Assembly: GCA_937860195.1 (NCBI GenBank)
Contig: CALMBN010000094.1
Location: 1 to 25,162 of the forward strand
Source: an uncultured Novosphingobium sp.
GTDB taxonomy: Bacteria; Pseudomonadota; Alphaproteobacteria; Sphingomonadales; Sphingomonadaceae
Length of the DNA stretch: 25,162 bases
Reading direction: 5' to 3'
In this document: one piece after another, positions 4,647-20,045 of the stretch
How the letters are laid out: the number at the start of each line of letters is the position of its first letter
How positions within the stretch are numbered: the stretch's first letter is position 1
The notes under the pieces: model-generated
Seen by the model: only the letters and a program-made list of their open reading frames with translations
Told to the model about the DNA's origin: nothing
Database searches by the model: none
Program-made: the position numbers and the translations under genes

Positions 4647-5861
4647 GTGAACTACGATCAGATATTCGACCAGGCGATTGAACGGCTTCATGGCGAAGGC
4701 CGCTACCGCGTGTTCATCGACATCCTTCGCAACAAGGGTGCCTACCCCAACGCACGGTGTTTTGCCGGGCACAATGGGCCCAAGGACATCACAGTGTGGT
4801 GCTCAAACGATTACCTGGCGATGGGCCAGCACCCGAAAGTGATCGCGGCGATGGAAGCTGCGTTGCACGATGTCGGCGCAGGCTCAGGCGGCACTCGCAA
4901 TATCGGCGGGAACACGCACTACCATGTCGATCTTGAAGCCGAACTGGCCGATCTGCACGGCAAGGACGGCGCGCTGCTGTTCACCAGCGGCTATGTGTCC
5001 AACGACGCGACGCTATCCACGATTGCCAAGATCTTGCCGGGCTGCGTGATCTTCTCCGATGAGCTCAACCACGCCAGCATGATTGCCGGGATTCGCAACT
5101 CCGGCGCAGAAAAGCGGGTGTTCCGCCACAACGATCTCGCCCATCTGGAAGAATTGCTCGCCGCCGAAGATCCCCAAGTGCCAAAGCTGATCGCGTTTGA
5201 GAGCGTTTATTCGATGGAAGGCGATGTCGCCCCGATCCACGCGATCTGCGATCTGGCCGACAAGTACAACGCGCTGACATACATTGACGAGGTCCACGCG
5301 GTCGGCATGTACGGCCCGCGCGGCGGCGGCATCACCGATCGCGATGAAGCCGCACACCGGATCGACATCATCGAAGGCACTCTGGGCAAGGCCTTTGGCG
5401 TGATGGGTGGCTATATCGCAGCCGACACCCGGATCATCGACGTGATCCGCAGCTACGCACCGGGGTTCATCTTCACCACCAGCCTTTCTCCGGTGCTGGT
5501 CGCCGGCGTGCTCGCATCGGTCCGCCACCTCAAGGGCAGCAGTGCCGAACGCGAGGGCCAGCAAGCCAACGCCGCCAGGCTCAAGGCCTTGTTGAGCGAC
5601 GCCGGATTGCCAGTGATGCTGTCGACCACCCACATCGTCCCGTTGATGGTTGGCGATCCGGTCAAGGCCAAGAAGATCGCCGACATTCTGCTGGCCGAAT
5701 ACGGTGTCTATGTGCAGCCGATCAACTATCCCACGGTCCCGCGCGGGACCGAGCGGCTGCGCTTTACCCCCGGACCGGCGCACACTGAAGCGATGATGCT
5801 GGACCTGACCAAAGCGCTGGTTGAAATCTGGCAGCGACTTGATTTGCGGCAGGCGGCGTAG
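4647..5861 (+). CDS. hemA: 5-aminolevulinate synthase (C4/Shemin pathway)
   Basis: HemA condenses glycine and succinyl-CoA to 5-aminolevulinate, the first committed step of heme synthesis in alphaproteobacteria, using PLP. I choose the GTG at 4647, which has GAAGGGA (4631-4637) at suitable spacing; the longer frame to 4569 would run back into ccmI. This gives 404 residues, the standard length. The PLP lysine is in GTLGKAFG at K248, the same number as the lysine reported for Rhodobacter Hem[12 protein letters not shown] carries the Asp that contacts the pyridine nitrogen, and the N-terminal [11 protein letters not shown] is typical. It lies directly behind the ccm genes, joining heme supply with cytochrome c assembly, and may be co-transcribed with them. 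Confidence 0.96.
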
Positions 5862-5925
5862 ACTCCAGGCCGCGGCAGGTCGCGACGGAGACATCGCACG
5901 ACAGTGTTCCGCAGCAGGCCTGTCG

Positions 5926-6516
5926 TCAGCCCAGCAGTGCTCCAATGTCTGCCACCACCAGCCCAAGTTGCTCAATCAGCCCGGCTATGTCTTCGGCTCG
6001 GGCCATTTCACCATCCTCGCGCATGATTGCGCAGATCACTGCGGCGTCCCCGGTTCCCGCGCGGAGGCACAGCTCAATCGCCGCCTCCAGCGCGGCCTGA
6101 CGTTCGGCCACCCCGCCCGGCGCGGCGATTAGCGGGAAGACGTGGCCAGGGGAAACCAGATCCTCGCCGGTTGAGGCCGGATCGATTGCCACCGCAACCG
6201 TCCGGGCGCGATCGGCGGCCGAGATGCCGGTGCTGACCCCGGTCCGGGCCTCGATCGAGCGGCCGTGGGGGCGGCCAGACTGACGCTCGGCCCCGGGGTT
6301 GATCAGGCTGATCCCCAGCCGCAGCGCGTGCGACGGGGTGAGCGCGAGGCAGATCAGCCCGCGGCCATGCGTCGCCATGAAGTTGATCGCCTCGGCATTG
6401 GCGTGGCGCGCGGCGACCGCAAAATCGATGTCCCCGCCGCGCAGCCGGTCACCGGTCAAAACAATCACCTGGCCTGCTGCCAGCGCCACAAGTGCCGGGC
6501 CCAATGCGCCGGTCAT
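5926..6516 (-). CDS. RibB-like protein without metal-binding active site (putative pseudoenzyme)
   Basis: The 196 residues align along their whole length with 3,4-dihydroxy-2-butanone-4-phosphate synthase (RibB): INFMATHGRGLICLALTP, GVSTGISAADRARTV, PGHVFPL and the MAR near the C terminus are all conserved. The catalytic positions are not. The DEDRENEGD loop is here TGDRLRGGD (about residues 21-29), so the Glu matching E. coli E38 is L25. The His matching metal ligand H153 is A142, in RQAALEAA where RibB has RGGHTEAT. The Glu matching E174 is A163 (VICAIM for VLCELT). Normal riboflavin-precursor synthesis is therefore unlikely. It is the last gene of the sulfoquinovose operon and its start overlaps the FMN reductase stop (ATGA). 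A role with flavin or a sugar intermediate is only a guess. Confidence 0.8.
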   Translation of the reverse strand: MTGALGPALVALAAGQVIVLTGDRLRGGDIDFAVAARHANAEAINFMATHGRGLICLALTPSHALRLGISLINPGAERQSGRPHGRSIEARTGVSTGISAADRARTVAVAIDPASTGEDLVSPGHVFPLIAAPGGVAERQAALEAAIELCLRAGTGDAAVICAIMREDGEMARAEDIAGLIEQLGLVVADIGALLG

Positions 6517-7088
6517 GGCCGATCCGCCGCCCCGGCAAAGGCCCGCGCTCCGCGCAGCACCTGCCCACCGACCAGTTCTAGTTGCATCCGGGCCCGGTCA
6601 TCAAGGCACTCACCATCGGGGCTGAACAGCCCGTGATAGGTCCGGATTGTCGCCCCCATCGGGGTAGGCCAGCCGCGCAGGGCGTGGACAATCGCCCGCA
6701 TGGTGATCAGAGTGCTCATCGTCGCCTGGTCGCCAAACGCGGTCGCGATCAGACCGACCGCGCGGCCATCGAGGTAGGGCCGCTCGTCCTTTGAAAGATC
6801 TTCAAGGAAATCGAGCGCGTTCTTGACCAGCCCCGAAATCGTCCCGTGATAGCCCGGCGCGGCGATCAGCAGGCCATCGGCTTGGCGCACAGCCTCAACC
6901 AGTTCGCTGCCATCGCCTTTGCGATGCGCTTCGCTGCCATAATGCGGCAGAGTCGCGAGGTAGCTACCGCCAAACACTTGCACTTTGGCTCCGTCTGCCC
7001 CCGCCGCCGCAGCAGCCAGTCGCAGCGCTTGCTCGGTCGAGGAGCCGGGATTGACGGTGCCGCCAATGGCGACGATCCGGGTTGTCAA
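6513..7088 (-). CDS. NAD(P)H-dependent FMN reductase (SsuE-like, flavodoxin fold)
   Basis: The 191 residues have the NADPH-dependent FMN reductase fold: a phosphate-binding loop GGTVNPGSST at residues 9-18 after the first strand, and the flavin-contacting PGYHGTISGLVKNAL at residues 78-92. Such enzymes supply FMNH2 to two-component monooxygenases, as SsuE does for SsuD. It lies 13 bases after the stop of the SsuD-type monooxygenase and overlaps the RibB-like gene, so it is very probably the reductase partner. It would fill the role of SmoA in the Agrobacterium sulfoquinovose monooxygenase pathway. Family is secure; partner assignment is by context. Confidence 0.88.
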   Translation of the reverse strand: MTTRIVAIGGTVNPGSSTEQALRLAAAAAGADGAKVQVFGGSYLATLPHYGSEAHRKGDGSELVEAVRQADGLLIAAPGYHGTISGLVKNALDFLEDLSKDERPYLDGRAVGLIATAFGDQATMSTLITMRAIVHALRGWPTPMGATIRTYHGLFSPDGECLDDRARMQLELVGGQVLRGARAFAGAADRP

Positions 7089-7101: not shown

Positions 7102-8178
7102 TCAAAGCGTCAGCGGGCCGTGCTGGATGTGGGGAAGGACATAGCGCGCAAACATATCGCATTCGTTCACATGCGGGTAGCCGGACAGGATGAAAGCCTC
7201 AATCCCCTCGGCCTGATAGGCGCGGAGCTTGGTCAGGACCTGATCGGGGGTGCCGACGATCGCTGCTCCGCAGCCGCTGCGCGCCCGGCCGATCCCGGTC
7301 CACAAGTTGGCCTCGACAAACCCGTCACCGCCGGCCGCGCCCCGCAGTTCGGCCTGACGCTGGACTCCGTAGTTCCCGGCATCGAGTGACTTCTCGCGAA
7401 TTGCCTTTCCGGCTTCATCGTCCAGTTTGGACAGCATCCGGTCGGCATAAGCGCGGGCTTCGTCTTCGGTCTCCCGGACGATCACGTGGGCGCGGTAGCC
7501 GTATTTCAGGGTCCGGCCGAATTTGGCCGCGCGGACTTTCATGTCGCCAACCGTTTCGCGGACCTTGTCCATCGTATCGGGCCACATCAGGTAGACGTCG
7601 GCGGCTTCTGCTGCACATTCACGGGCAACCGGGCTGAGTCCCCCGAAATAGAGCGGCGGACACTTGCCCGAGGTGGTGGTCATCCGCGGCGGATCGAGCT
7701 CGAGCTGGTAGAATTCGCCACGATGGGACAAGTGCTCACCGTTCAGCATGGTCTTGAGGATCTTCATTGCCTCAACCGTGCGGGCATAGCGTGGTCCGCC
7801 CTCAAGTGTTTCACCCGGAATGTCCGAGGAGATGATGTTGACCGTCAGCCGTCCGCCCAGAATCCGGTCGAGTGTCGCGATCCGGCGAGCGAGCTGCGGC
7901 GGCCAGTCCTCACCAATCCGCACCGCCATCAGCAGACGAATCCGCTGGACTTGCGTGGCTACAGCTGCGGCAAACACCGTGGTATCGAGGCCAAGTTGAT
8001 AGCCTGAAGGGAGCAGGATATTGTCGAACCCGGCCTCTTCGGCGCGCAGCACGATATTGCGGCAGTGCTCCCAGCTGGAAGCCAGATAGGGATCGGGCAC
8101 GCCAAGAAATTCGTAGTCGTCATCGCACAGGGCTGAGAACCACGAGATTTCACATTGCTGGTCTTGTAACCGGGTCAT
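7102..8178 (-). CDS. smoC: FMNH2-dependent sulfoquinovose monooxygenase (SsuD family)
   Basis: The protein has 358 residues and the bacterial-luciferase TIM-barrel fold. It aligns closely with alkanesulfonate monooxygenase SsuD: NILLPSG, ATLDRILGGRLTVNI, PPLYFGGLSPVA, YGYRAHVIVRET (R229 and H231, matching SsuD R226 and H228), NLWTGIGRARSG (R300, matching R297) and FILSGYPH. The SsuD Cys54 position, in LLPSGYQLGLD, is not Cys. SsuD enzymes cleave C-S bonds using FMNH2 and O2, releasing sulfite and an aldehyde. Between a sulfoquinovosidase, an aldo/keto reductase and an FMN reductase, the likely substrate is sulfoquinovose and the products 6-oxo-glucose and sulfite. Its start overlaps the reductase gene stop (ATGA). 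Substrate is inferred from neighbours; a general alkanesulfonate monooxygenase is the alternative. Confidence 0.85.
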   Translation of the reverse strand: MTRLQDQQCEISWFSALCDDDYEFLGVPDPYLASSWEHCRNIVLRAEEAGFDNILLPSGYQLGLDTTVFAAAVATQVQRIRLLMAVRIGEDWPPQLARRIATLDRILGGRLTVNIISSDIPGETLEGGPRYARTVEAMKILKTMLNGEHLSHRGEFYQLELDPPRMTTTSGKCPPLYFGGLSPVARECAAEAADVYLMWPDTMDKVRETVGDMKVRAAKFGRTLKYGYRAHVIVRETEDEARAYADRMLSKLDDEAGKAIREKSLDAGNYGVQRQAELRGAAGGDGFVEANLWTGIGRARSGCGAAIVGTPDQVLTKLRAYQAEGIEAFILSGYPHVNECDMFARYVLPHIQHGPLTL

Positions 8179-9089
8179 GGCAACCTCTCCCCGCGGGCGG
8201 CGACCAGCACCGAATACCAGTCAGTGCGGCTCCATTGGACAGTCAGCGCCAACGCGCCCTCAGCGATCCGCCGGGCCTGCTGCGAACCGATGATCGGAAC
8301 AATCCCGGCCGGATGGGCCAGCAGCCATGAATAGGCCGCCACTGCGCGGCTGATGTCTTGGTTGGCGGCAACACGATTAAGCTCGGCGATCACCGCTTTG
8401 TCCCGGGCGGATTCGACCCCGGTGATTCGTCCGCCACCGAGCGGCGACCAGGCCATGGGAGTCAGGCCTAGCTGCATCGCCTGATCGAGCTCGCCGTTTT
8501 CAAAGCAATCAATCCGCAACGGACTGATCTCGGGCTGAGTCGAAACCAGTTTTTGACCCAGGAAATGATTGAGTGCCGAAATCTGGGTTTGAGTGAAATT
8601 GGATACCCCCAAGGCGCGGACCTTGCCTGAAGCCACGGCATCGTCGAGCACCTGCGCGATCTCATGTGGATGCGCGAGAATGTCGGGGCGGTGGATCTGC
8701 CACAGATCGATGCTGTCGGTTCTCAGCCGGTCCAGCGATGCGTCGATCGCACTGCGGAGATAGTCAGCGCTCTGGTCATAGGGCAGCGGCGGCCTGATCC
8801 CGCCTTTGGTGGCCAGCACCATCTGCCCCCGCAGGCCTGGTTCGGCGGCAAGCACCTGGCCTAGCAGCGCTTCGGCATCGCCAAACCCGCCGGTGCCGTT
8901 GAAGCCATAGATGTCGGCTGTGTCGAGCAGGGTGATCCCGCTGTCGAGCGCGGCGTGGACCAGCCGCGCGGCTTCGGCCACGCTGCGTCCGGCTTCGGCC
9001 AGGCGCCACATCCCCCAGGCCATCGGGGAAATCGTAAGCCCGCTCAAGCCGAGCTGACGGCTGGCAGGGGGCAGGGGCAAAAGGCTCAT
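8175..9089 (-). CDS. smoB: Aldo/keto reductase, probable 6-oxo-glucose reductase
   Basis: The 304 residues have the aldo/keto reductase catalytic tetrad: D56 and Y61 in DTADIYG, K95 in ATKGG, and H133 in WQIHRPD. ALGVSNF and the C-terminal PIIGSQQARRI carry strand and nicotinamide-cofactor phosphate-binding features of the family. In sulfo-SMO pathways an enzyme of this kind (SmoB) reduces the 6-aldehyde left by desulfonation to glucose. The gene overlaps both its upstream regulator and the downstream monooxygenase by four bases, which supports this pathway role. The family is certain; the substrate is inferred from the operon. Confidence 0.85.
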   Translation of the reverse strand: MSLLPLPPASRQLGLSGLTISPMAWGMWRLAEAGRSVAEAARLVHAALDSGITLLDTADIYGFNGTGGFGDAEALLGQVLAAEPGLRGQMVLATKGGIRPPLPYDQSADYLRSAIDASLDRLRTDSIDLWQIHRPDILAHPHEIAQVLDDAVASGKVRALGVSNFTQTQISALNHFLGQKLVSTQPEISPLRIDCFENGELDQAMQLGLTPMAWSPLGGGRITGVESARDKAVIAELNRVAANQDISRAVAAYSWLLAHPAGIVPIIGSQQARRIAEGALALTVQWSRTDWYSVLVAARGERLP

Positions 9090-10099
9090 GGTTTTTTCCT
9101 GGCTGGGGGAGCGACGGACGCGCGCTCGATCAATTGGTGAGGCAGGCGGCGATGGTTGATATCACCCCCGGCGATGAGGATTTCGGCGGCCGTTTGGGCC
9201 AGTTCGGCCATTGGCTGGTGGATCGTGGTCAGCGGCGGCCAGACCGTGCGGGCAAGCGTGGTATCATCAAACCCGGCGACTGAAAGCTCGCTCGGCAAAT
9301 CGATGTTGCGATCATGCGCCACGGCCAGTACACCAGCGGCCATATCGTCGTTCGAAGCGAAGATCGCGGTTGGGCGGTCGGCCATATCAAGGAATTCAGC
9401 TGCCGCCCGCGCGCCGCTTTCGAAGTCGAATTCACCTTCGGCCACCAGCGCCGCTTCAAATGCTATCCCGGCCCGATCAAGTGCGCGGAAATAGCCGGCC
9501 AAGCGGTCGTTCGAAGCCATGTGGTTGGGATGGCCCTTGATGAACCCGATCCGGCGGTGGCCGTGATTGATAAGGTGGGTGGTCATGTCATCGGCGGCCT
9601 GCGCATCGTCCATGAAGACCGAGCTGGTCAAGGCATGGTTGGTCCCCGGCGAAATCCGCACAAAGGGTATGTCCATCGCCTCCAGCGCGCGCAGCACCGG
9701 GTCGCAATCGGTGACTGGCGACGACAGAATGATCCCATCAACATGGGTTTCGGTGACCAGCCCGCGGATCTGCTCGCCAACGAGCGGATCGGCCACATCG
9801 ACCGGCTGGGCGAGCAGCCGAATGCCGTGCTGCTTGCACACTTCCCAGCAGCCGGTCTGGATCTGGAACATGTAATAGGGGCTGTGATTGTCATAGATCA
9901 GCGCAACCTGGTTGCTTTTGGCGCCCGACAGGATTCGCGCTGCCACGCTGGGCCTGAAATCAAGTTCTTTCATCGCCGCATCGACCCGGGCCTTGGTCTC
10001 GGTGCTGACATAGGGATGACCGTTGAGCACACGGCTGACAGTCTTTACCGCGACCCCGGCCAAAGCGGCGACATCGCGGATGTTGGAGCGTTCGCTCAT
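9086..10099 (-). CDS. LacI/GalR-family transcriptional regulator
   Basis: The 337 residues begin with a LacI helix-turn-helix (NIRDVAALAGVAVKTVSRVLNG at about residues 6-27, of which NIRDVA and VSRVLN are the signature parts) and a hinge (RPSVAARILSG). A periplasmic-binding-protein-like effector domain follows, with DGIILSSP, GHRRIGFI and FASNDDMAAG. It is the second gene of the sulfoquinovose operon, overlapping the sulfoquinovosidase stop (ATGA) and the reductase start (ATGA). It probably represses the operon and the divergent receptor gene until a sulfoquinovose-related sugar binds. A candidate operator lies at 12209-12225. It is unusual in being translated from the middle of the catabolic operon it is likely to control. 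Confidence 0.92.
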   Translation of the reverse strand: MSERSNIRDVAALAGVAVKTVSRVLNGHPYVSTETKARVDAAMKELDFRPSVAARILSGAKSNQVALIYDNHSPYYMFQIQTGCWEVCKQHGIRLLAQPVDVADPLVGEQIRGLVTETHVDGIILSSPVTDCDPVLRALEAMDIPFVRISPGTNHALTSSVFMDDAQAADDMTTHLINHGHRRIGFIKGHPNHMASNDRLAGYFRALDRAGIAFEAALVAEGEFDFESGARAAAEFLDMADRPTAIFASNDDMAAGVLAVAHDRNIDLPSELSVAGFDDTTLARTVWPPLTTIHQPMAELAQTAAEILIAGGDINHRRLPHQLIERASVAPPARKKP

Positions 10100-12087
10100 T
10101 GGCTTGCCAGTCCCTCAAAGAGTGCTGCGAAGGCACTGTTTGCGTTGTAAAACACCGGCGGGCAACCAATTGGCGCAGGTATGGTGTATTGGCCGGGGGC
10201 ATAGTGCTCACCAGTAAAGGCATGGGTCCATTCGCTGGCTCCGGGCAGGATGACGCTGCGGCTGACTGCACCCGCGTCGATCACCGGCGCGACCAGCAGG
10301 TCGGCACCGTACAAATACTGGTTCTGGACCGAGTAAAGCTCTGAATTATGCGGATAATGCAGGAACAGCGGGCGCTGGGCGGGCAGGCCTTGCGTGCACG
10401 CTTCGGTGCAGAGCTGACGGACGTAAGGTGCAAGGTGGGCGTGGACCCTGCTCCAGCGGGCGAAGCAGGCCAGCAGTTCGGGAGTACTGTCATATTGCAG
10501 GTTTTCGTCCGGACGGTTACCTTCGTGGCTGCGCATGACGGGGGCGAAGGCTGCCAACTCGCACCAGCGGTGCATCAGCTCTGTCGTGCGGACATTGCCG
10601 AGTAGCGAGGTATAACCGCCGCAATCGGAGTGGCTGTAGGCATTGCCGACGAGGCCAACCGAAAGCGCCGCAGTGATCACCGTGCCGATCCCGTCATGGC
10701 GGGTGAAATCGACCGATTGGTCTCCGGCCCACAACAGCGGGCAATGCGCCTGAACGCCGCTGAACCCGGCGCGCATGAAGAACACCGCCTCGCCGGTCTG
10801 GCCCCGGCTTTCCAGCGCCATCGCGTTGACCTCGGCCCACAGCACCGGCCAGCGGTTGTGCGCCTCCATCGGGTCCGAGCCATCGGCCAGCCGCACGTCC
10901 GTGGGCAGATATTCGCCAAAATCGGCCATCCAACCCGCGATGCCGATGTCGAGCATTTCGCGGCCCAGCACCTTTTCGGCGAACCAGGCGCGGGTCTCGG
11001 TGCGGGTGAAATCGATCACGCCGCAATCGAACTCGCCAAAATCGACCAGATAGACCTCGTCGCCGTCCTGGCGCAGGCAGAAGTGCCCGCCCTCCAGCGC
11101 TTCCTCGTAAAGGATGCCGTCATTGGCGAGGTATGGATTGGCATAGGCCAGAAAGCGGATGCCGCGCGCCGCCAGACGCGCGATCCGCTGCGGCAAATCG
11201 GGAAAGCGCTGGTTGTCGCGGCGCCAATCCCAGAACAGGCGGCGGCCAAAGCTGGTTTCGCGAATCCCGGCCCAGTCCTCGCACCACAGCCCGGCAACCG
11301 CCGTGCCCGCTGCAATGAACCGCTCAAGCCGGTCAAAACTCTGCGCGCCGTCCTTCAGCCCGACGATCGCTCCGCCGATTGCCCAATCGGGCAGTGGCGG
11401 CTGGCGGCCAAACCGGGTGGAGAGGTGACCGACCAGATCCAGCGGGCCATTGGCGGCAAACAATTCGAATGTGGTCGCCGCGGCCCAGACCTCAACCCGG
11501 TGGCGGGCCGGATCGGTGAAATCGAGCACCGAATAAGCCTCGGTCGTACAATGCACCGCCACCCAGCGCGAGGTCAGGAAAGTCGGCTGCGGATAATTGG
11601 TGGTCCAGTAGTCGCCGCCGGCCATCCCGGCGGCATCCATTGCCTGGGTCAAGTCGGTGGTCTTGTCGCGGCCAACTCCCGGCTCGCTGGTCCAGATCGG
11701 AAAGGCGCGACCATTCAGCGCCAGATAGCTCATCTGCTCACCTCCGCCCCAGACCGTCTCGCCCGGTTCGGCGAAGCAGTTGAAGTGGATCCGGTCATAG
11801 TCCGCGCGGAGCAGTTCGACCGTCAACGCATTCACCAAGAACGTCAGCCGCGCCGCCGGACCTTCGCGGTCGGACAGCAAAACGCTGTCACCATCGATTA
11901 CCCAATCGGTCGGCGCGATGCTGCCGAACGGCGCATCCTCGATCCGGAAATTGCCCCGAATCATTTCGACCGCGGGGTTCCCGCGCGCCATCGTCAGCAC
12001 CGGAGTCGCAGACCGGTGCGACAGGAACAGGCGACCTGCGAAATGCAACTCAAAGCCCTCGTCTGTGCCGGTAAACCCGCTCTCCAT
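10096..12087 (-). CDS. smoI: Sulfoquinovosidase, glycoside hydrolase family 31
   Basis: Sulfoquinovosidases hydrolyse sulfoquinovosyl glycerol or sulfolipid glycosides to sulfoquinovose. I choose the ATG at 12087 (663 residues), since the frame from 12165 adds an N terminus unlike the family. With this start the residues that define the KERWY class fall where they are reported in the Agrobacterium enzyme: K245 (GLKDG), E270 (WCEDWAG), R283 and W286 (GRRLFWDW), and a Tyr at 492 (SDCGGY). The nucleophile is D389 in GWMADFGEYL and the acid/base is D456 in LLWAGDQ. HEGNRP and the C-terminal APIGCPPVFY also match E. coli YihQ. There is no signal peptide, so it acts in the cytoplasm. It is the first gene of a six-gene coupled operon. 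Confidence 0.93.
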   Translation of the reverse strand: MESGFTGTDEGFELHFAGRLFLSHRSATPVLTMARGNPAVEMIRGNFRIEDAPFGSIAPTDWVIDGDSVLLSDREGPAARLTFLVNALTVELLRADYDRIHFNCFAEPGETVWGGGEQMSYLALNGRAFPIWTSEPGVGRDKTTDLTQAMDAAGMAGGDYWTTNYPQPTFLTSRWVAVHCTTEAYSVLDFTDPARHRVEVWAAATTFELFAANGPLDLVGHLSTRFGRQPPLPDWAIGGAIVGLKDGAQSFDRLERFIAAGTAVAGLWCEDWAGIRETSFGRRLFWDWRRDNQRFPDLPQRIARLAARGIRFLAYANPYLANDGILYEEALEGGHFCLRQDGDEVYLVDFGEFDCGVIDFTRTETRAWFAEKVLGREMLDIGIAGWMADFGEYLPTDVRLADGSDPMEAHNRWPVLWAEVNAMALESRGQTGEAVFFMRAGFSGVQAHCPLLWAGDQSVDFTRHDGIGTVITAALSVGLVGNAYSHSDCGGYTSLLGNVRTTELMHRWCELAAFAPVMRSHEGNRPDENLQYDSTPELLACFARWSRVHAHLAPYVRQLCTEACTQGLPAQRPLFLHYPHNSELYSVQNQYLYGADLLVAPVIDAGAVSRSVILPGASEWTHAFTGEHYAPGQYTIPAPIGCPPVFYNANSAFAALFEGLASQ

Positions 12088-12158
12088 GCCCTTTTGCGCC
12101 CTTTGGTGCCGCCCTGTGGCCTCGCTGCAACGGTCGCTGTGCTTCCGTATGACACCGC

Positions 12159-12187
12159 TTGACATATCGGGCTAAGCGCAGCAATTC
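12159..12187 (+). promoter_or_regulatory. Possible promoter for the TonB-dependent receptor gene
   Basis: In the 202-base gap between the divergent sulfoquinovosidase and receptor genes, a perfect TTGACA lies at 12159-12164. Seventeen bases on is a weak -10 (CAATTC, 12182-12187). The predicted start would be just upstream of the palindrome at 12209-12225, a sensible place for repression. The -10 match is poor, so this is tentative. Confidence 0.25.
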
Positions 12188-12289: not shown

Positions 12290-14689
12290 ATGAAATCAAT
12301 GCTTCGCGCCTCAGTTGCCGTTCTGGCACTGACCGCATTTTCCGCCCCCGCGCTGGCACAGGATGCCGCTGCCACTGACGATGATATTGCCCCCGGCGAA
12401 ATCGTCGTGACCGCTCAAAAGCGCTCGGAAAGCCTGCAATCGGTTCCGGTCGCGGTCTCGGTGCTGAGCGGCGAGGACCTTGCCGATGCCAGCCGCCCGA
12501 GCATCGAAAGCGCGGCCCAGATGGTGCCCTCGCTCAACTTCCTAAAGTCGGGCACCACGCTCAACCAGACGATTTTCCTGCGCGGGGTTGGCACCGCCAC
12601 CTTCTCGATCGCGGGTGAGCCTTCGGTTTCGACCGTGGTTGACGGCGTGGTCTATGCCCGTTCGGGCGAAGCCTTCTCCGACATGGTTGACGTTTCGCAG
12701 ATCGAAGTGCTGCGCGGCCCGCAGGGTACCCTGTTCGGCAAGAATTCGTCGGCCGGGGTGGTCAACATCACCACCCAGATGCCCAAGCACGAATTCGGCG
12801 GTTCGGTCGAAGCGAGCTATTTTGACAAAAGCGAAGTGCGGGTCAAAGGCGCGGTCAACCTGCCGCTTGGCCCCGATCTGGCAGCTCGGGTCACCGGATT
12901 CTATGGCAACTATGACGGTAACATCCGCAACACCACCACTAACGAATGGGTCAATGGCTACAAGCACTGGGGCGTGCGCGGCCAGTTCCTGTATGAGCCG
13001 AGCAATAACCTGCGCATCTACGTTGCGGCAGACTATTACAAGAACGACGACGATTGCTGCGCCGATATCATCGCTACTGGCGTTCCGACCGTTACGAGCA
13101 CTGGCGTTACCTACGCAACCACTGGCCTGGCCTTCTCGGTCCTGCCGACACCACAATTCGCCGACACCCGCGCGGTCGCGCAGAACCTGGTGACCGCGAC
13201 CAAGGAAAAAGGCTGGGGCATTTCGGGCCAGATCGATCTGGGCCTGGGCAGCCACACCCTCACTTCGATCACCGCCTATCGCGGCTGGGACAACACCGAA
13301 ATCCGCGATGGCGACTGGTTGCCGATGGCCTATGTCGGTTTCGCGCAGTTGCACGATAACGGCCCGCAAAGTTCAACCACGTTCAGCCAGGAAGTGCGCC
13401 TCACCTCGCCGGCTGATCAGACCCTGTCATATGTGATTGGGGCCTACTATTCGAAGGCCGATAGCGAGCGGACTTTCACTCGCAATGTCACCCAGTGCAC
13501 TGCTGCGGTTGGCGCGCCCACCGGTGTCCTGATCCCTTGCGGCAGCATCAATGCCAATGCCTCGACCTTCCCATCGGGTACGGCGACGTTTGGTTCGACT
13601 TTCGACAACTTTGCGGTGTTTGGTCAGGCGACGCTGAAAATTGGCGACAAAGCCCGCCTGATCGGCGGTCTGCGCTATACCAATGACAAGCTGTCGGTAT
13701 TCCATCAGCGCGTTACCCCTCTGACTGGCCCAGGCATTCAGGCCAATTTCGATCAAGGCGTCTATAACGAATACATTCGCCTGATCGGTCTTGGCTCTAC
13801 CCCGGCTGCGGCTGTCGCGGCGGCTGTGCCGTTCTCAAACGGCGTGCCGTTCCGGACCAGCACCAGCAACGACAACTTCTCGGGCAAAGTCGCGCTGCAG
13901 TATGACTTCAGCGATGATGTGATGGGCTATGTCAGCTATGCCCGCGGCTACAAGGGCCCAGCCTATAACATCTTCTACAACCTTACCGGCACCGGCACCA
14001 ATGTGATCGAACCGGAAACTGCGGACTCGATCGAGATCGGCCTGAAGAACACGTTCATGGATGGCAAGCTGACCCTGAACCTCGCGGGGTTCTATGCCAA
14101 GTACAAGAACTTCCAGGCCAACAACCCAGATATCGTCTCTGGCGTAGTAGTCACCCGCTTCACCAATGCCGGTTCAATCTCGACCACCGGGATCGAAGCC
14201 GATCTCAGCTATCGGCCAAGCCGCAACACCACCTTCAACGCCGGGATTTCGATCACCGATGCCCACGTTGTGGCGTTCAACGCCGCGCCGGGGGCTCTGC
14301 CCAGCCAGATCGTTCCGGCTGGCACCAAGCTCGGCTATGCTCCGACGGTCAAGGGTTCGGTCTCGTTCGAACACCGCTTTGTCACCGGCGGGTTTGCCGA
14401 TATTTCCTTCGGCACTTCGATGAACTTCCAATCCGAACAACTCTCGCTGTTTGGGCCAGACGCGATCCAGCGGCAATTGGGCACGATCCCTGGCTATGCC
14501 TTGGTCAATGCCTCGCTGGCGGTGGTCGATCCCAGCGATAAGTGGAAGCTGACCTTCCATGTCCGCAACGTGCTGGACAAATCCTATGCCGCTGCGATCG
14601 TCAACGGCGGAGTTTCTGGAGCGTATCGCTATCAGATCCCGCGTGATGCAGACCGCTACTTTGGCGTGACGCTGCGGGTCGGCTTCTGA
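12290..14689 (+). CDS. TonB-dependent outer-membrane receptor
   Basis: The 799 residues start with a signal peptide (to about ALAQ at 24), then the TonB box EIVVTAQKR near residue 36. A plug domain follows (VPVAVSVLSGEDL, IFLRGVGT, VEVLRGPQGTLFGKNSSAG-like block). A long beta-barrel ends in YFGVTLRVGF with the terminal Phe used for outer-membrane insertion. GGGAGAG precedes the ATG. Such receptors use TonB energy to import substrates across the outer membrane; sphingomonads use many for sugars. Its divergent pairing with the sulfoquinovosidase operon suggests uptake of sulfoquinovosyl glycerol, sulfoquinovose or a sulfolipid fragment. The substrate is an inference; the family is certain. Confidence 0.93.
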   Translation: MKSMLRASVAVLALTAFSAPALAQDAAATDDDIAPGEIVVTAQKRSESLQSVPVAVSVLSGEDLADASRPSIESAAQMVPSLNFLKSGTTLNQTIFLRGVGTATFSIAGEPSVSTVVDGVVYARSGEAFSDMVDVSQIEVLRGPQGTLFGKNSSAGVVNITTQMPKHEFGGSVEASYFDKSEVRVKGAVNLPLGPDLAARVTGFYGNYDGNIRNTTTNEWVNGYKHWGVRGQFLYEPSNNLRIYVAADYYKNDDDCCADIIATGVPTVTSTGVTYATTGLAFSVLPTPQFADTRAVAQNLVTATKEKGWGISGQIDLGLGSHTLTSITAYRGWDNTEIRDGDWLPMAYVGFAQLHDNGPQSSTTFSQEVRLTSPADQTLSYVIGAYYSKADSERTFTRNVTQCTAAVGAPTGVLIPCGSINANASTFPSGTATFGSTFDNFAVFGQATLKIGDKARLIGGLRYTNDKLSVFHQRVTPLTGPGIQANFDQGVYNEYIRLIGLGSTPAAAVAAAVPFSNGVPFRTSTSNDNFSGKVALQYDFSDDVMGYVSYARGYKGPAYNIFYNLTGTGTNVIEPETADSIEIGLKNTFMDGKLTLNLAGFYAKYKNFQANNPDIVSGVVVTRFTNAGSISTTGIEADLSYRPSRNTTFNAGISITDAHVVAFNAAPGALPSQIVPAGTKLGYAPTVKGSVSFEHRFVTGGFADISFGTSMNFQSEQLSLFGPDAIQRQLGTIPGYALVNASLAVVDPSDKWKLTFHVRNVLDKSYAAAIVNGGVSGAYRYQIPRDADRYFGVTLRVGF

Positions 14690-14716: not shown

Positions 14717-14750
14717 GGGGCCTTCGCTTTGCGGCGGAGGCCCCTATTGT
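14717..14750 (+). terminator. Rho-independent terminator after the receptor gene
   Basis: An 11-base stem (GGGGCCTTCGC at 14717-14727 with GCGGAGGCCCC at 14734-14744, one G-T wobble) and a six-base loop are followed by the T-rich TATTGTTTGT. It lies 27 bases after the receptor stop and before the MFS gene, so much of the receptor message probably ends here and the transporter may depend on read-through or its own promoter. Confidence 0.8.
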
Positions 14751-14773
14751 TTGTAAGCAGCGGACAGGCCGGA

Positions 14774-16018
14774 ATGGGGAGCGCAGCGGTGCAGGTGCAA
14801 AAAATCAATAGCCGGCTCAGCTGGGCGCTGTTTATCATCCTGTGCGTCGCGGGTATTTTCAACGCGATGGACCGCCCGATTATCGCGATCCTCAAACCCG
14901 ATATGTCGGCCGACTTTGGCTGGGATGACAAGGATTTCGGCGATCTGGGGTTCTATACCCAGATGGCGGCGGCGTTTTCATTCCTGTTCACCGGCTGGCT
15001 GGTTGACCGGCTCGGCGTGCGCAAATCGATGATCGGCGGGGTGACCGCGTGGAGCATGGCTGCGATGGCGCACGGCTGGGCGATCACCACTTGGCACGTT
15101 GTCGCGGCACGGGTCGGCCTGGGCGCAACTGAGGCGGTGCAGACCCCGCTCATGATCAAGACCGTGGCCACCCTGTTTGAACCGAACAAGCGCTCGCTCG
15201 CCTTTGGGGTCGGCACTGCCGTCGCCAGCATCGGCACGATTTCGCTGCCGTTTTTCATTCCGATATTGGCGTTCACCTTTGGCTGGCGCGGCGCGCTGAT
15301 CTTTGGCGGGGTCGCCGGGTTCGTCTCACTCGCCGCCTGGCTGGTGCTGGCGCGTGGGATTAAGTTCGACGATGCCGCCGAAGATGAAACGCTCGATTAC
15401 AACGATGATGCCGCGCCCTATGGCCCGATCCTGCGCGAAAGCCGGACCTGGGCGATCTGCGTGGCCAAGACCATCTCGGACGCGACCTGGTGGTTCATCA
15501 ACTTCTGGCTCGCCGACTATTACCGCAAGACCTATGAGCTGACGACCGCGGAGCTGGCCGTGCCGCTGGGCATCGCCTTTGCCGGATCGGCGCTCGGCGC
15601 ATTGGCGGCAGGGTGGATTTCAACCCGGCTGCTCGAACTCGGCTGGAGCGTCAACCGCGTCCGCAAGACGGTGATGCTGGTCTCTGCATTGGTGGTCACG
15701 CCGCTGCCATTTATCACCCAGCTCAATTCGTTCTGGCCGGTGGCGATCATGATGGGCGTGGTGATGGCCGGGCATCAGGGCTTTTCACTCTCGATCTTCG
15801 CCACGATCACCGATGTCGTGCCGCGCGGCAAAGTCGGCCGGGTGACCGCGTTTGGCGCGTTCATGGGCAATATGGGCGGCGCCGGGATCGTCAAACTGAC
15901 CGGGATTCTGCTGGTCGGCGGCTATGGCTATATGCCGCTGTTCATCTTCGCCGCCGCCTCATACCTGTTGGCGCTGATGTGGCTGCACTTGCTGCTACCT
16001 GATATTAAACGCGCCTAG
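14774..16018 (+). CDS. MFS transporter, probable anion:cation symporter type (sugar-acid/sulfosugar uptake)
   Basis: This is an inner-membrane permease with about 12 hydrophobic helices. The segments FNAMDRPIIAILKPDM and GWLVDRLGVRKS (the helix 2-3 loop) are like the hexuronate-type anion:cation symporters of the major facilitator family. The frame is open back to 14729, but that part lies in the terminator hairpin. I use the ATG at 14774; the GTG at 14789, with GGAG six bases upstream, is an equally good start. Placed after the receptor gene, it is the natural inner-membrane importer for the anionic substrate of the sulfoquinovose operon. Its TAG stop shares two bases with the stop of the converging SDR gene. 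Substrate is inferred. Confidence 0.85.
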   Translation: MGSAAVQVQKINSRLSWALFIILCVAGIFNAMDRPIIAILKPDMSADFGWDDKDFGDLGFYTQMAAAFSFLFTGWLVDRLGVRKSMIGGVTAWSMAAMAHGWAITTWHVVAARVGLGATEAVQTPLMIKTVATLFEPNKRSLAFGVGTAVASIGTISLPFFIPILAFTFGWRGALIFGGVAGFVSLAAWLVLARGIKFDDAAEDETLDYNDDAAPYGPILRESRTWAICVAKTISDATWWFINFWLADYYRKTYELTTAELAVPLGIAFAGSALGALAAGWISTRLLELGWSVNRVRKTVMLVSALVVTPLPFITQLNSFWPVAIMMGVVMAGHQGFSLSIFATITDVVPRGKVGRVTAFGAFMGNMGGAGIVKLTGILLVGGYGYMPLFIFAAASYLLALMWLHLLLPDIKRA

Positions 16019-19175: not shown

Positions 19176-19310
19176 ATGGCCCGCGCCCTTGCCCATGCTG
19201 TCTGTCAACCGCTGCCTGACGCGGCGGAGTTGCTGCGGCTGTTGCTGGTGACCGGCTGCGCGGCGGCTCTGATTGCTGCTGGCCAGGCACTGCCGGCCCT
19301 AGGCCTGTAG
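19176..19310 (+). CDS. Possible 44-residue small membrane protein
   Basis: An ATG at 19176 is preceded by ATAAGG with five-base spacing and opens a 44-residue frame ending in TAG. It begins MARALAHAVCQ and has a hydrophobic stretch LLRLLLVTGCAAALIAAG that could span the membrane. The last 12 bases overlap the 3' end of the converging TauE/SafE gene. Nothing in it is recognisable. It fills most of the 166-base gap between the acyl-CoA dehydrogenase and the exporter; it could equally be chance or a gene remnant. Confidence 0.25.
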   Translation: MARALAHAVCQPLPDAAELLRLLLVTGCAAALIAAGQALPALGL

Positions 19311-20045
19311 CAGTTTCCAAAGCGCTGCTATCGCCGCAAGGCCAAGTACACCGCCGGTAAATGTCCGCCAGACGGCATCGCTGACCTTGCCGAACGCCAG
19401 ATGGCCCAGCCAGTTGCCGAGCAGTACTGCAGGAAACAGCACTGCGGCAAAGGCTGGTTCGCGCCAGGTCGCAACCCCAAGCGCCAATGCCGAGAGCACC
19501 CCGGCGATTGATGTGGCCATGAAAATCGTCATCATCGACGCGCGGGCCAATTGCGGGGAGATCTCGCGGCGCAAATAGTACGGCACGACGGGCGGCCCAG
19601 GCATGCCTGCAAACCCGGTCAGTATGCCTGATGTGATCCCGGTGGCACCAGTCTCGGCTGGGCCAGGCGCATAGTGTGCGGGCTTCTTTGGCAGCAAGAC
19701 CAGCACGAACGAGGCCAAGGCGATCAGGGCGATCAGCAGCCGCGCCAGAGCAGGATCGGTCAGCGACAGCAGCCACACGCCGAGCGGAGTCGCGAGCATC
19801 GCCAGCGCGGAAATAGTGAATGCGCTCCGCTCGCTCGCGCCGATGATCTTCTTTAGCCCGACCAGCCCGATCAGCAGTCCCAGCCAGTTTGCCACCACCA
19901 CCGCTTCGGTCGGTGGAATGGCAAGGCCAAGCACCGGCACCAGCAGGATCGCCATCCCGAACCCCGCCAGCCCCCGTACGAAAGCCGCGCCCAGCGCCGC
20001 AGCGAGGGCGACGATAATCTGAGCTTCGGTAAGGCCGAGGATCAA
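19299..20045 (-). CDS. TauE/SafE (TSUP) family transporter, possible sulfite exporter
   Basis: The 248 residues form about eight hydrophobic helices with the family pattern of two related halves: [17 protein letters not shown] near residue 27 and [19 protein letters not shown] in the second half. Members move sulfite, sulfoacetate or related anions out of the cell. The start is a TTG at 20045 that overlaps the thrS stop (TTGA); no other good start exists before residue 30. It is translated behind thrS, so it looks like a housekeeping operon by position. Still, a sulfite exporter would suit the sulfite released by the monooxygenase some 11 kb away. The transported ion cannot be read from the sequence. 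Confidence 0.8.

Follow-up and report, generated by a model that had tools for sequence, protein, structure and literature searches.

The protein analysed here, for which we coined the label RibL, shares its fold with RibB, the DHBP synthase (PF00926, EC 4.1.99.12), whose active site sits between two protein chains. In the crystal structure of a DHBP synthase (DHBPS) with a phosphonate inhibitor, as described in the part of that report covered here, the phosphono group is bound by two arginines together with the main chain at H153 and T154, H136 and D42 contact oxygens of the carbon chain, and E38 and H153 are direct metal ligands (PMC12268802). The clamp of the real enzyme accepts a C-phosphonate. 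Residue numbers in that part of the report are 3 lower than the E. coli numbering used throughout this text. The second system that bears on RibL is the sulfoquinovose (SQ) monooxygenase pathway (sulfo-SMO, or sulfo-ASMO); the sections of one paper covered here report that the sulfo-ASMO cluster of N. aromaticivorans lacks an SsuE-type flavin reductase gene of its own (PMC9594981). Within the portions of the literature covered, which include PMC13372026, PMC10755693, PMC12890257, PMC5228156, PMC9594981, and PMC12268802, we found no description of a metal-free RibB in an SQ or FMN monooxygenase operon. No RibB-fold gene is named in the parts of the SQ papers searched.

The gene for RibL lies in a 25,162-nucleotide stretch of DNA from an uncultured Novosphingobium sp. 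(contig CALMBN010000094.1), referred to below as the window (Table 1). There, gh31, lacI, akr, smoC, fmnR, and ribL form a six-gene run (12165 to 5926, minus strand), with a 4-nt overlap at four of the five junctions and a 13-nt gap at the fifth (smoC/fmnR). The gh31 product also scored 865 bits against PRK10426 (cut-off 553), and the best PDB matches of the monooxygenase (7olf, 7oh2) and of the aldo/keto reductase (7bbz, 7bby) are SmoC and SmoB of the published pathway. The fmnR product scored below the cut-offs of the MsuE and SsuE models, and its PDB matches were weak (azo-, chromate, and FMN reductases among others); we treat it as a putative FMN reductase of the PF03358 family. Sulfoquinovosidase, SmoC, SmoB, and flavin reductase family genes were all found in the one cluster and, as judged from sequence, the operon context of RibL is a true sulfo-SMO operon. 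The TonB-dependent receptor gene is close to gh31 in many relatives, and the MFS transporter gene adjoins it in several.

Table 1. Coordinates of the genes and residues discussed for the window and, in the last two rows, for the RibL2 loci
Feature	Position	Strand	Description
ribL	5926..6516	-	RibB fold without the metal ligands, 196 aa; final gene in the operon
fmnR	6513..7088	-	PF03358, NADPH-dependent FMN reductase family, 85 bits; overlaps ribL by 4 nt
smoC	7102..8178	-	FMNH2-dependent sulfoquinovose monooxygenase; PF00296; best matches 7olf (382 bits) and 7oh2 (372 bits)
akr, SmoB-like aldo/keto reductase	8175..9089	-	PF00248; top PDB matches 7bbz, 7bby
lacI, LacI-family regulator	9086..10099	-	PF00356, PF13377
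gh31, YihQ-type GH31 sulfoquinovosidase	10096..12165	-	828 bits to YihQ entry 5ohy
TonB-dependent receptor	12290..14689	+	PF00593, PF07715; divergent from the operon
MFS transporter	14729..16018	+	PF07690
Start of GDxLRxGDxDF motif, residues 22-31	6424..6453	-	Occupies the place of the RENEGD loop of RibB
H125 (E. coli H136)	6142..6144	-	Retained ligand contact; 41/41 rows
R139 (E. coli R150)	6100..6102	-	Phosphate clamp retained, together with R26 (R37); 41/41 rows
A142, position of metal ligand H153	6091..6093	-	A in 36, T in 5 of 41 rows
A163, position of E174	6028..6030	-	S in 35, A in 6 of 41 rows
RibL2, locus L130	5822-6427	-	3 nt behind a luciferase-like monooxygenase gene
RibL2, locus L129	6057-6743	+	PF01613 flavin reductase gene about 3 kb away

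Two observations may bear on the handling of sulfite. The window carries a TauE/SafE family gene (19299-20045, minus strand), and the relative L021 has a PF03601 gene upstream as well as a gene for a molybdopterin oxidoreductase just past ribL (4821-5912, 8588-9802). A link between RibL and heme synthesis was also considered, as hemA adjoins the operon in the window, and was dropped; among 25 RibL loci, several of which end shortly after ribL, hemA is shown at L001 alone, which is the window itself.

RibL consists of a single PF00926 domain and matches no other Pfam family; it contains neither PF00925, the second domain of RibBX and RibBA, nor PF01263, the domain of YihR-type mutarotases. Its score against the NCBIfam ribB model (149.2 bits) is under the cut-off of 177.45. 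All 47 solved structures nearest to it at E ≤ 0.001 are DHBP synthases or two-domain proteins containing one, and its AlphaFold2 model (63 rows) reached a pLDDT of 93.1 and a pTM of 0.91. Together with the residue counts below, these results bear out an earlier reading of the sequence, the first-pass annotation, according to which the metal site is lost while fold and reading frame are intact. Residues were counted in an ungapped register over 41 diverse RibL rows and also in the best 120 hits. In the window protein, E38 is replaced by Gly (G27), E40 by Asp, H153 by Ala (A142), and E174 by Ala (A163); the first-pass annotation was right about the last two, but had placed Leu at E38 and Gly at E40 through a two-residue shift. 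R37, D42, T107, S110, D113, R114, H136, and R150 are kept in all 41 rows, H153 and E174 are lost in all 41, and E38 and T154 are lost in 40. In the best 120 hits, R26, D31, and R139 are present in 120 and H125 in 119, which rules out a sequencing error behind the substitutions and contradicts the idea that correcting one would restore the motif.

Canonical relatives look different at these positions. RENEGD is found in 56/56 of them, and none departs from E38, T154, or E174; eight have Gln at H153, so this position can vary. In the GDxLRxGDxDF motif of RibL, on the other hand, R26, G28, D29, and D31 are invariant in 41/41 rows. The earlier claim that every metal ligand had been lost stands for E38 and H153, the direct metal ligands in the covered part of the DHBPS report (PMC12268802); D42 and H136, which contact the bound ligand there, are kept. 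With R37, R150, D42, and H136 retained and the metal ligands lost, the phosphate clamp and the sugar contacts are preserved and the metals are gone. Most of the replacements (G, A, L, S) are small or apolar, so the pocket of RibL may be larger than that of RibB. A tree of 66 proteins placed all 23 RibL rows in one group (support 100/100, stem 0.93), with a bootstrap that had not fully settled.

In a one-genome-per-species scan, 134 loci matched, of which the best 80 were typed and 54 were not kept; among these best 80, 24 were of the RibL type and 56 canonical. We take 22 of the 24 RibL-type loci to be sphingomonads at some rank, the other 2 being placed merely as Pseudomonadota or Alphaproteobacteria. 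Two further samples were searched, which share genomes, so that the genomes are not independent. In the family sample (149 genomes), RibL at 55% identity or more was found in 14, all of which have smoC, in one case (G116) on a second contig. A canonical ribB was found elsewhere in all 13 RibL genomes other than the window's own, as an open frame of more than 390 aa in 12 and of 350 aa in G007. The search for a second, intact ribB thus succeeded in 13/13 genomes, but found none in the window's own assembly, which is 71% complete.

In the order sample (296 genomes; thresholds of E 1e-48 for RibL, 1e-100 for smoC, and 1e-65 for fmnR), RibL was detected in 23 genomes from 11 genera, smoC in 56, and fmnR in 28. 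All 23 RibL genomes have both smoC and fmnR, and in all 23 ribL is on the same contig as smoC, at most 11.3 kb away. At E 1e-48, RibL was found in none of the 33 smoC genomes without this fmnR and in none of the 5 fmnR genomes without smoC. Among the genomes sampled, RibL is confined to those encoding both the FmnR clade and SmoC. The 23/23 co-occurrence rules out a chance neighbourhood with the SQ operon and, together with the 4-nt overlap, upholds the coupling to an FMN reductase and an SQ operon that had first been read from the window, and shows that homologues co-occur with smoC. Since 33 genomes have smoC and no RibL, the SmoC reaction itself can run without it; the N. aromaticivorans cluster, reported in the covered text to lack an SsuE-type reductase, is in line with these genomes, which have neither fmnR nor RibL.

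The pairing with fmnR is equally tight at the level of single loci. In 67 fmnR-ribL locus rows, which include repeated genomes (42 different ribL sequences among 63 rows), the gap was -4 nt in 47 and within 30 nt in 66; the exception, L152, carries a damaged ribL. On a SmoC tree of 53 rows, the distribution of RibL requires 7 changes, at least 5 of them forced by well-supported forks. We then compared 32 RibL-positive with 19 RibL-negative distinct smoC loci, counting the window and leaving out L001 and L082 as its repeats; the 19 negative loci were chosen by hand: all 9 RibL-free genomes whose smoC reaches 79% or more, plus 10 others. An fmnR of at least 60% identity was present at 32/32 positive loci and 1/19 negative ones; every positive locus had at least 61% identity, and 17/19 negative loci had no fmnR match, the other two being L139 and L140. 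The same comparison led us to drop a link to glpD (20/32 positive, 5/19 negative).

Some loci separate the genes. L159 and L160 carry the operon glpK-glpD-smoC-akr-lacI-gh31, from which fmnR and ribL are both absent, and L166 has the order gh31-lacI-akr-smoC-glpD-fmnR-ribL-glpK; glpK was named by motif in all three. Because ribL and fmnR overlap, one deletion can remove both and mimic a functional tie, which weakens the argument for a role in flavin handling. L112, L113, and L114, from genomes without smoC, have an fmnR inside the RibL-linked fmnR group and no RibL (support of the forks that place them: 96/88, 99/77, and 97/89, with some long branches); RibL therefore seems to be lost with smoC even when fmnR stays.

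A glpD-like (glycerol-3-phosphate dehydrogenase) gene occurs in many sphingomonad SQ operons, some of which also have a glycerol kinase-like gene, again by motif (for example L014:5921-7432, L160:5758-8705, and L166). These genes could use the glycerol from sulfoquinovosyl glycerol. In L113 and L114, at about 8.2-10.9 kb on the minus strand, a member of the FmnR clade stands behind glpD in genomes without smoC, so the clade may have a second use.

Taken together, RibL is very probably a metal-free RibB fold that is not a DHBP synthase and is dedicated to the FmnR/SmoC pair. It would be a RibB paralogue that has given up DHBP synthesis for a new function and acts between FmnR and SmoC, probably handling either flavin or sugar in an operon with which some soil and water bacteria release sulfite from the plant sugar sulfoquinovose. 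Its dependence on a reductase plus a monooxygenase, and a pocket built for a five-carbon sugar phosphate, make FMN or FMNH2 a candidate ligand; the side chain of FMN is a ribityl phosphate. Our tentative reading is that flavin is the most likely ligand of those considered and that it is bound through this ribityl phosphate. The ribityl-5'-phosphate would be held in the former ribulose-5-phosphate site, and the space freed by E38G, H153A, T154L/A, and E174S/A would accommodate the remainder of the flavin. RibL could then carry, store, or gate reduced flavin for SmoC, so that less of it is lost to O2. Of the roles suggested in the first-pass annotation (flavin handling, sugar binding, or regulation), the first is favoured by the gene distribution, without amounting to proof; against it, L139 and L140 have near smoC an FMN reductase from outside the RibL-linked fmnR group, and no RibL. 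It is conceivable, if somewhat doubtful, that RibB here became a dedicated carrier or gate of reduced flavin by dropping its two metal ions and keeping its clamp, and that metal-free RibB folds have been recruited more than once near flavin enzymes.

The main rival, which we regard as rather unlikely, is that RibL binds the sulfosugar. The clamp arginines would hold the C6 sulfonate of SQ in place of a phosphate, and D31 and H125 would provide the acid and the base for mutarotating or opening the ring of SQ or 6-dehydroglucose without a metal, a step preceding SmoC or the aldo/keto reductase. RibL would then add one more type to the SQ mutarotases, unrelated to the others. It is the main rival because the sulfonate would suit the clamp and because other SQ clusters have unrelated mutarotases, namely YihR and, putatively, SqvB, the uncatalysed mutarotation of SQ being slow according to the sections covered (PMC9594981). 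The tolerance of the real enzyme's clamp for a C-phosphonate, described in the covered part of that structural report (PMC12268802), the invariance of D29 and D31, and the absence of RibL where smoC is absent though fmnR remains all fit a sugar ligand. However, a sugar enzyme would not be expected to be missing from the 33 smoC genomes without this FMN reductase, and RibL tracks the reductase rather than glpD.

A distinctly less likely alternative is that RibL is a non-catalytic subunit or regulator partnering FmnR or SmoC, with a pocket for a small effector or for folding alone. This would agree with the overlap of ribL and fmnR and with the co-dependence on smoC, but a mere scaffold would have no need of invariant pocket residues.

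That RibL is still a DHBP synthase, with D29 and D31 as new metal ligands, and boosts the riboflavin supply of the operon appears very unlikely. There is a parallel in the ribB genes near luciferase (lux) genes, which boost riboflavin supply, and in genome G122 a two-domain RibB with an intact motif and PF00925 (L116:7246-8930, minus strand) adjoins another FMN reductase gene. The fold and half of the pocket are retained in RibL, and the H153 position varies even in canonical relatives. Nevertheless, the loss of E38 in 40 and of H153 and E174 in all 41 rows, the score below the ribB cut-off, and the canonical RibB in each of the 13 other RibL genomes of the family sample stand against continued synthesis. 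Also in the L116 stretch are an acd2-like ORF and one that, by eye, resembles an acyl-CoA ligase.

For ribL, comparing the window with seven relatives gave Nei-Gojobori omega values of 0.11-0.20, and nine further pairs gave 0.04-0.15. Over these 16 comparisons the values fall within the range of fmnR, smoC, and akr; they are rough, because the comparisons with the window have synonymous distances close to 1. RibL is under purifying selection and shows no decay, as had been proposed from the window. The reading of RibL as a degenerating ribB copy about to be lost is extremely improbable and was rejected on selection and residue conservation: damaged copies do occur (L024/L095 and L152), but omega resembles that of the neighbouring genes, and RibL forms one clade with a new invariant motif in 23 of the 296 genomes and 11 genera. 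As to the damaged copies themselves, L024 and L095 belong to G007, whose smoC is likewise in pieces, which suggests assembly errors. The ribL copy at L152 (G249) has its start in a different reading frame and lacks the stretch with the motif; G249 is nonetheless counted among the 23 RibL-positive genomes.

Two other sphingomonad genomes encode a different RibB-derived protein, RibL2 (Table 1); the member at L129 stands amid ORFs that by eye resemble a meta-cleavage cluster. In 17 RibL2 sequences, E38 is lost in 16, R37 in 15, and H153, R150, and D42 in all 17, which also have Asp at E174 and keep T107, S110, R114, and H136. On the tree, RibL2 formed a separate group (100/100) with a very long stem that calls for caution over long-branch effects. 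It is rare, with 16 proteins in a large database, and in the 296 genomes of the order the search gave two weak hits, both at the positions of RibL itself. We considered RibL2 as a close parallel of RibL and rejected this on the alignment, with R37, D42, and R150 mostly lost and Asp at E174. Mostly without the clamp arginines, it would have to work differently and gives the proposed binding mode of RibL no support. RibL2 is a further metal-poor RibB near flavin enzymes, but makes thin evidence. Another may be a two-domain RibB/RibA-like protein in genome G127 (L135:6286-7407, plus strand), in which DEHSQSKADL replaces DEDRENEGDL and Pro occupies the E174 position (by eye).

Two-component systems have long raised the question of how reduced FMN reaches the monooxygenase from its reductase without wasteful reaction with oxygen. 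A cofactor-biosynthesis fold that is confined to genomes with both FmnR and SmoC offers a candidate for this transfer step or else for a new sulfosugar enzyme. It also illustrates that the database label 'DHBP synthase' can cover other proteins, which matters for the annotation of the riboflavin pathway and for the reading of SQ gene clusters.

Set against the known systems, RibL has the RibB fold but lacks the metal ligands E38 and H153 as well as E174, carries GDxLRxGDxDF, and is not the canonical ribB product of its organisms. Compared with the two-domain RibBX (6mnz), it lacks both the second domain and the metal site, whereas the L116 protein keeps the metal-site motif. The SQ mutarotases YihR and SqvB are like RibL in possible role alone, PF00926 being its one Pfam family. 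The operon of the window has the same sulfoquinovosidase, monooxygenase, aldo/keto reductase, flavin reductase family gene, and regulator as the sulfo-SMO (sulfo-ASMO) operon encoding SmoI/YihQ, SmoC, SmoB, and SmoA, and differs from it by the extra RibB-fold gene. Both the fold and the operon type are known; a metal-free variant of this fold within an SQ operon is new within the portions of the literature searched.
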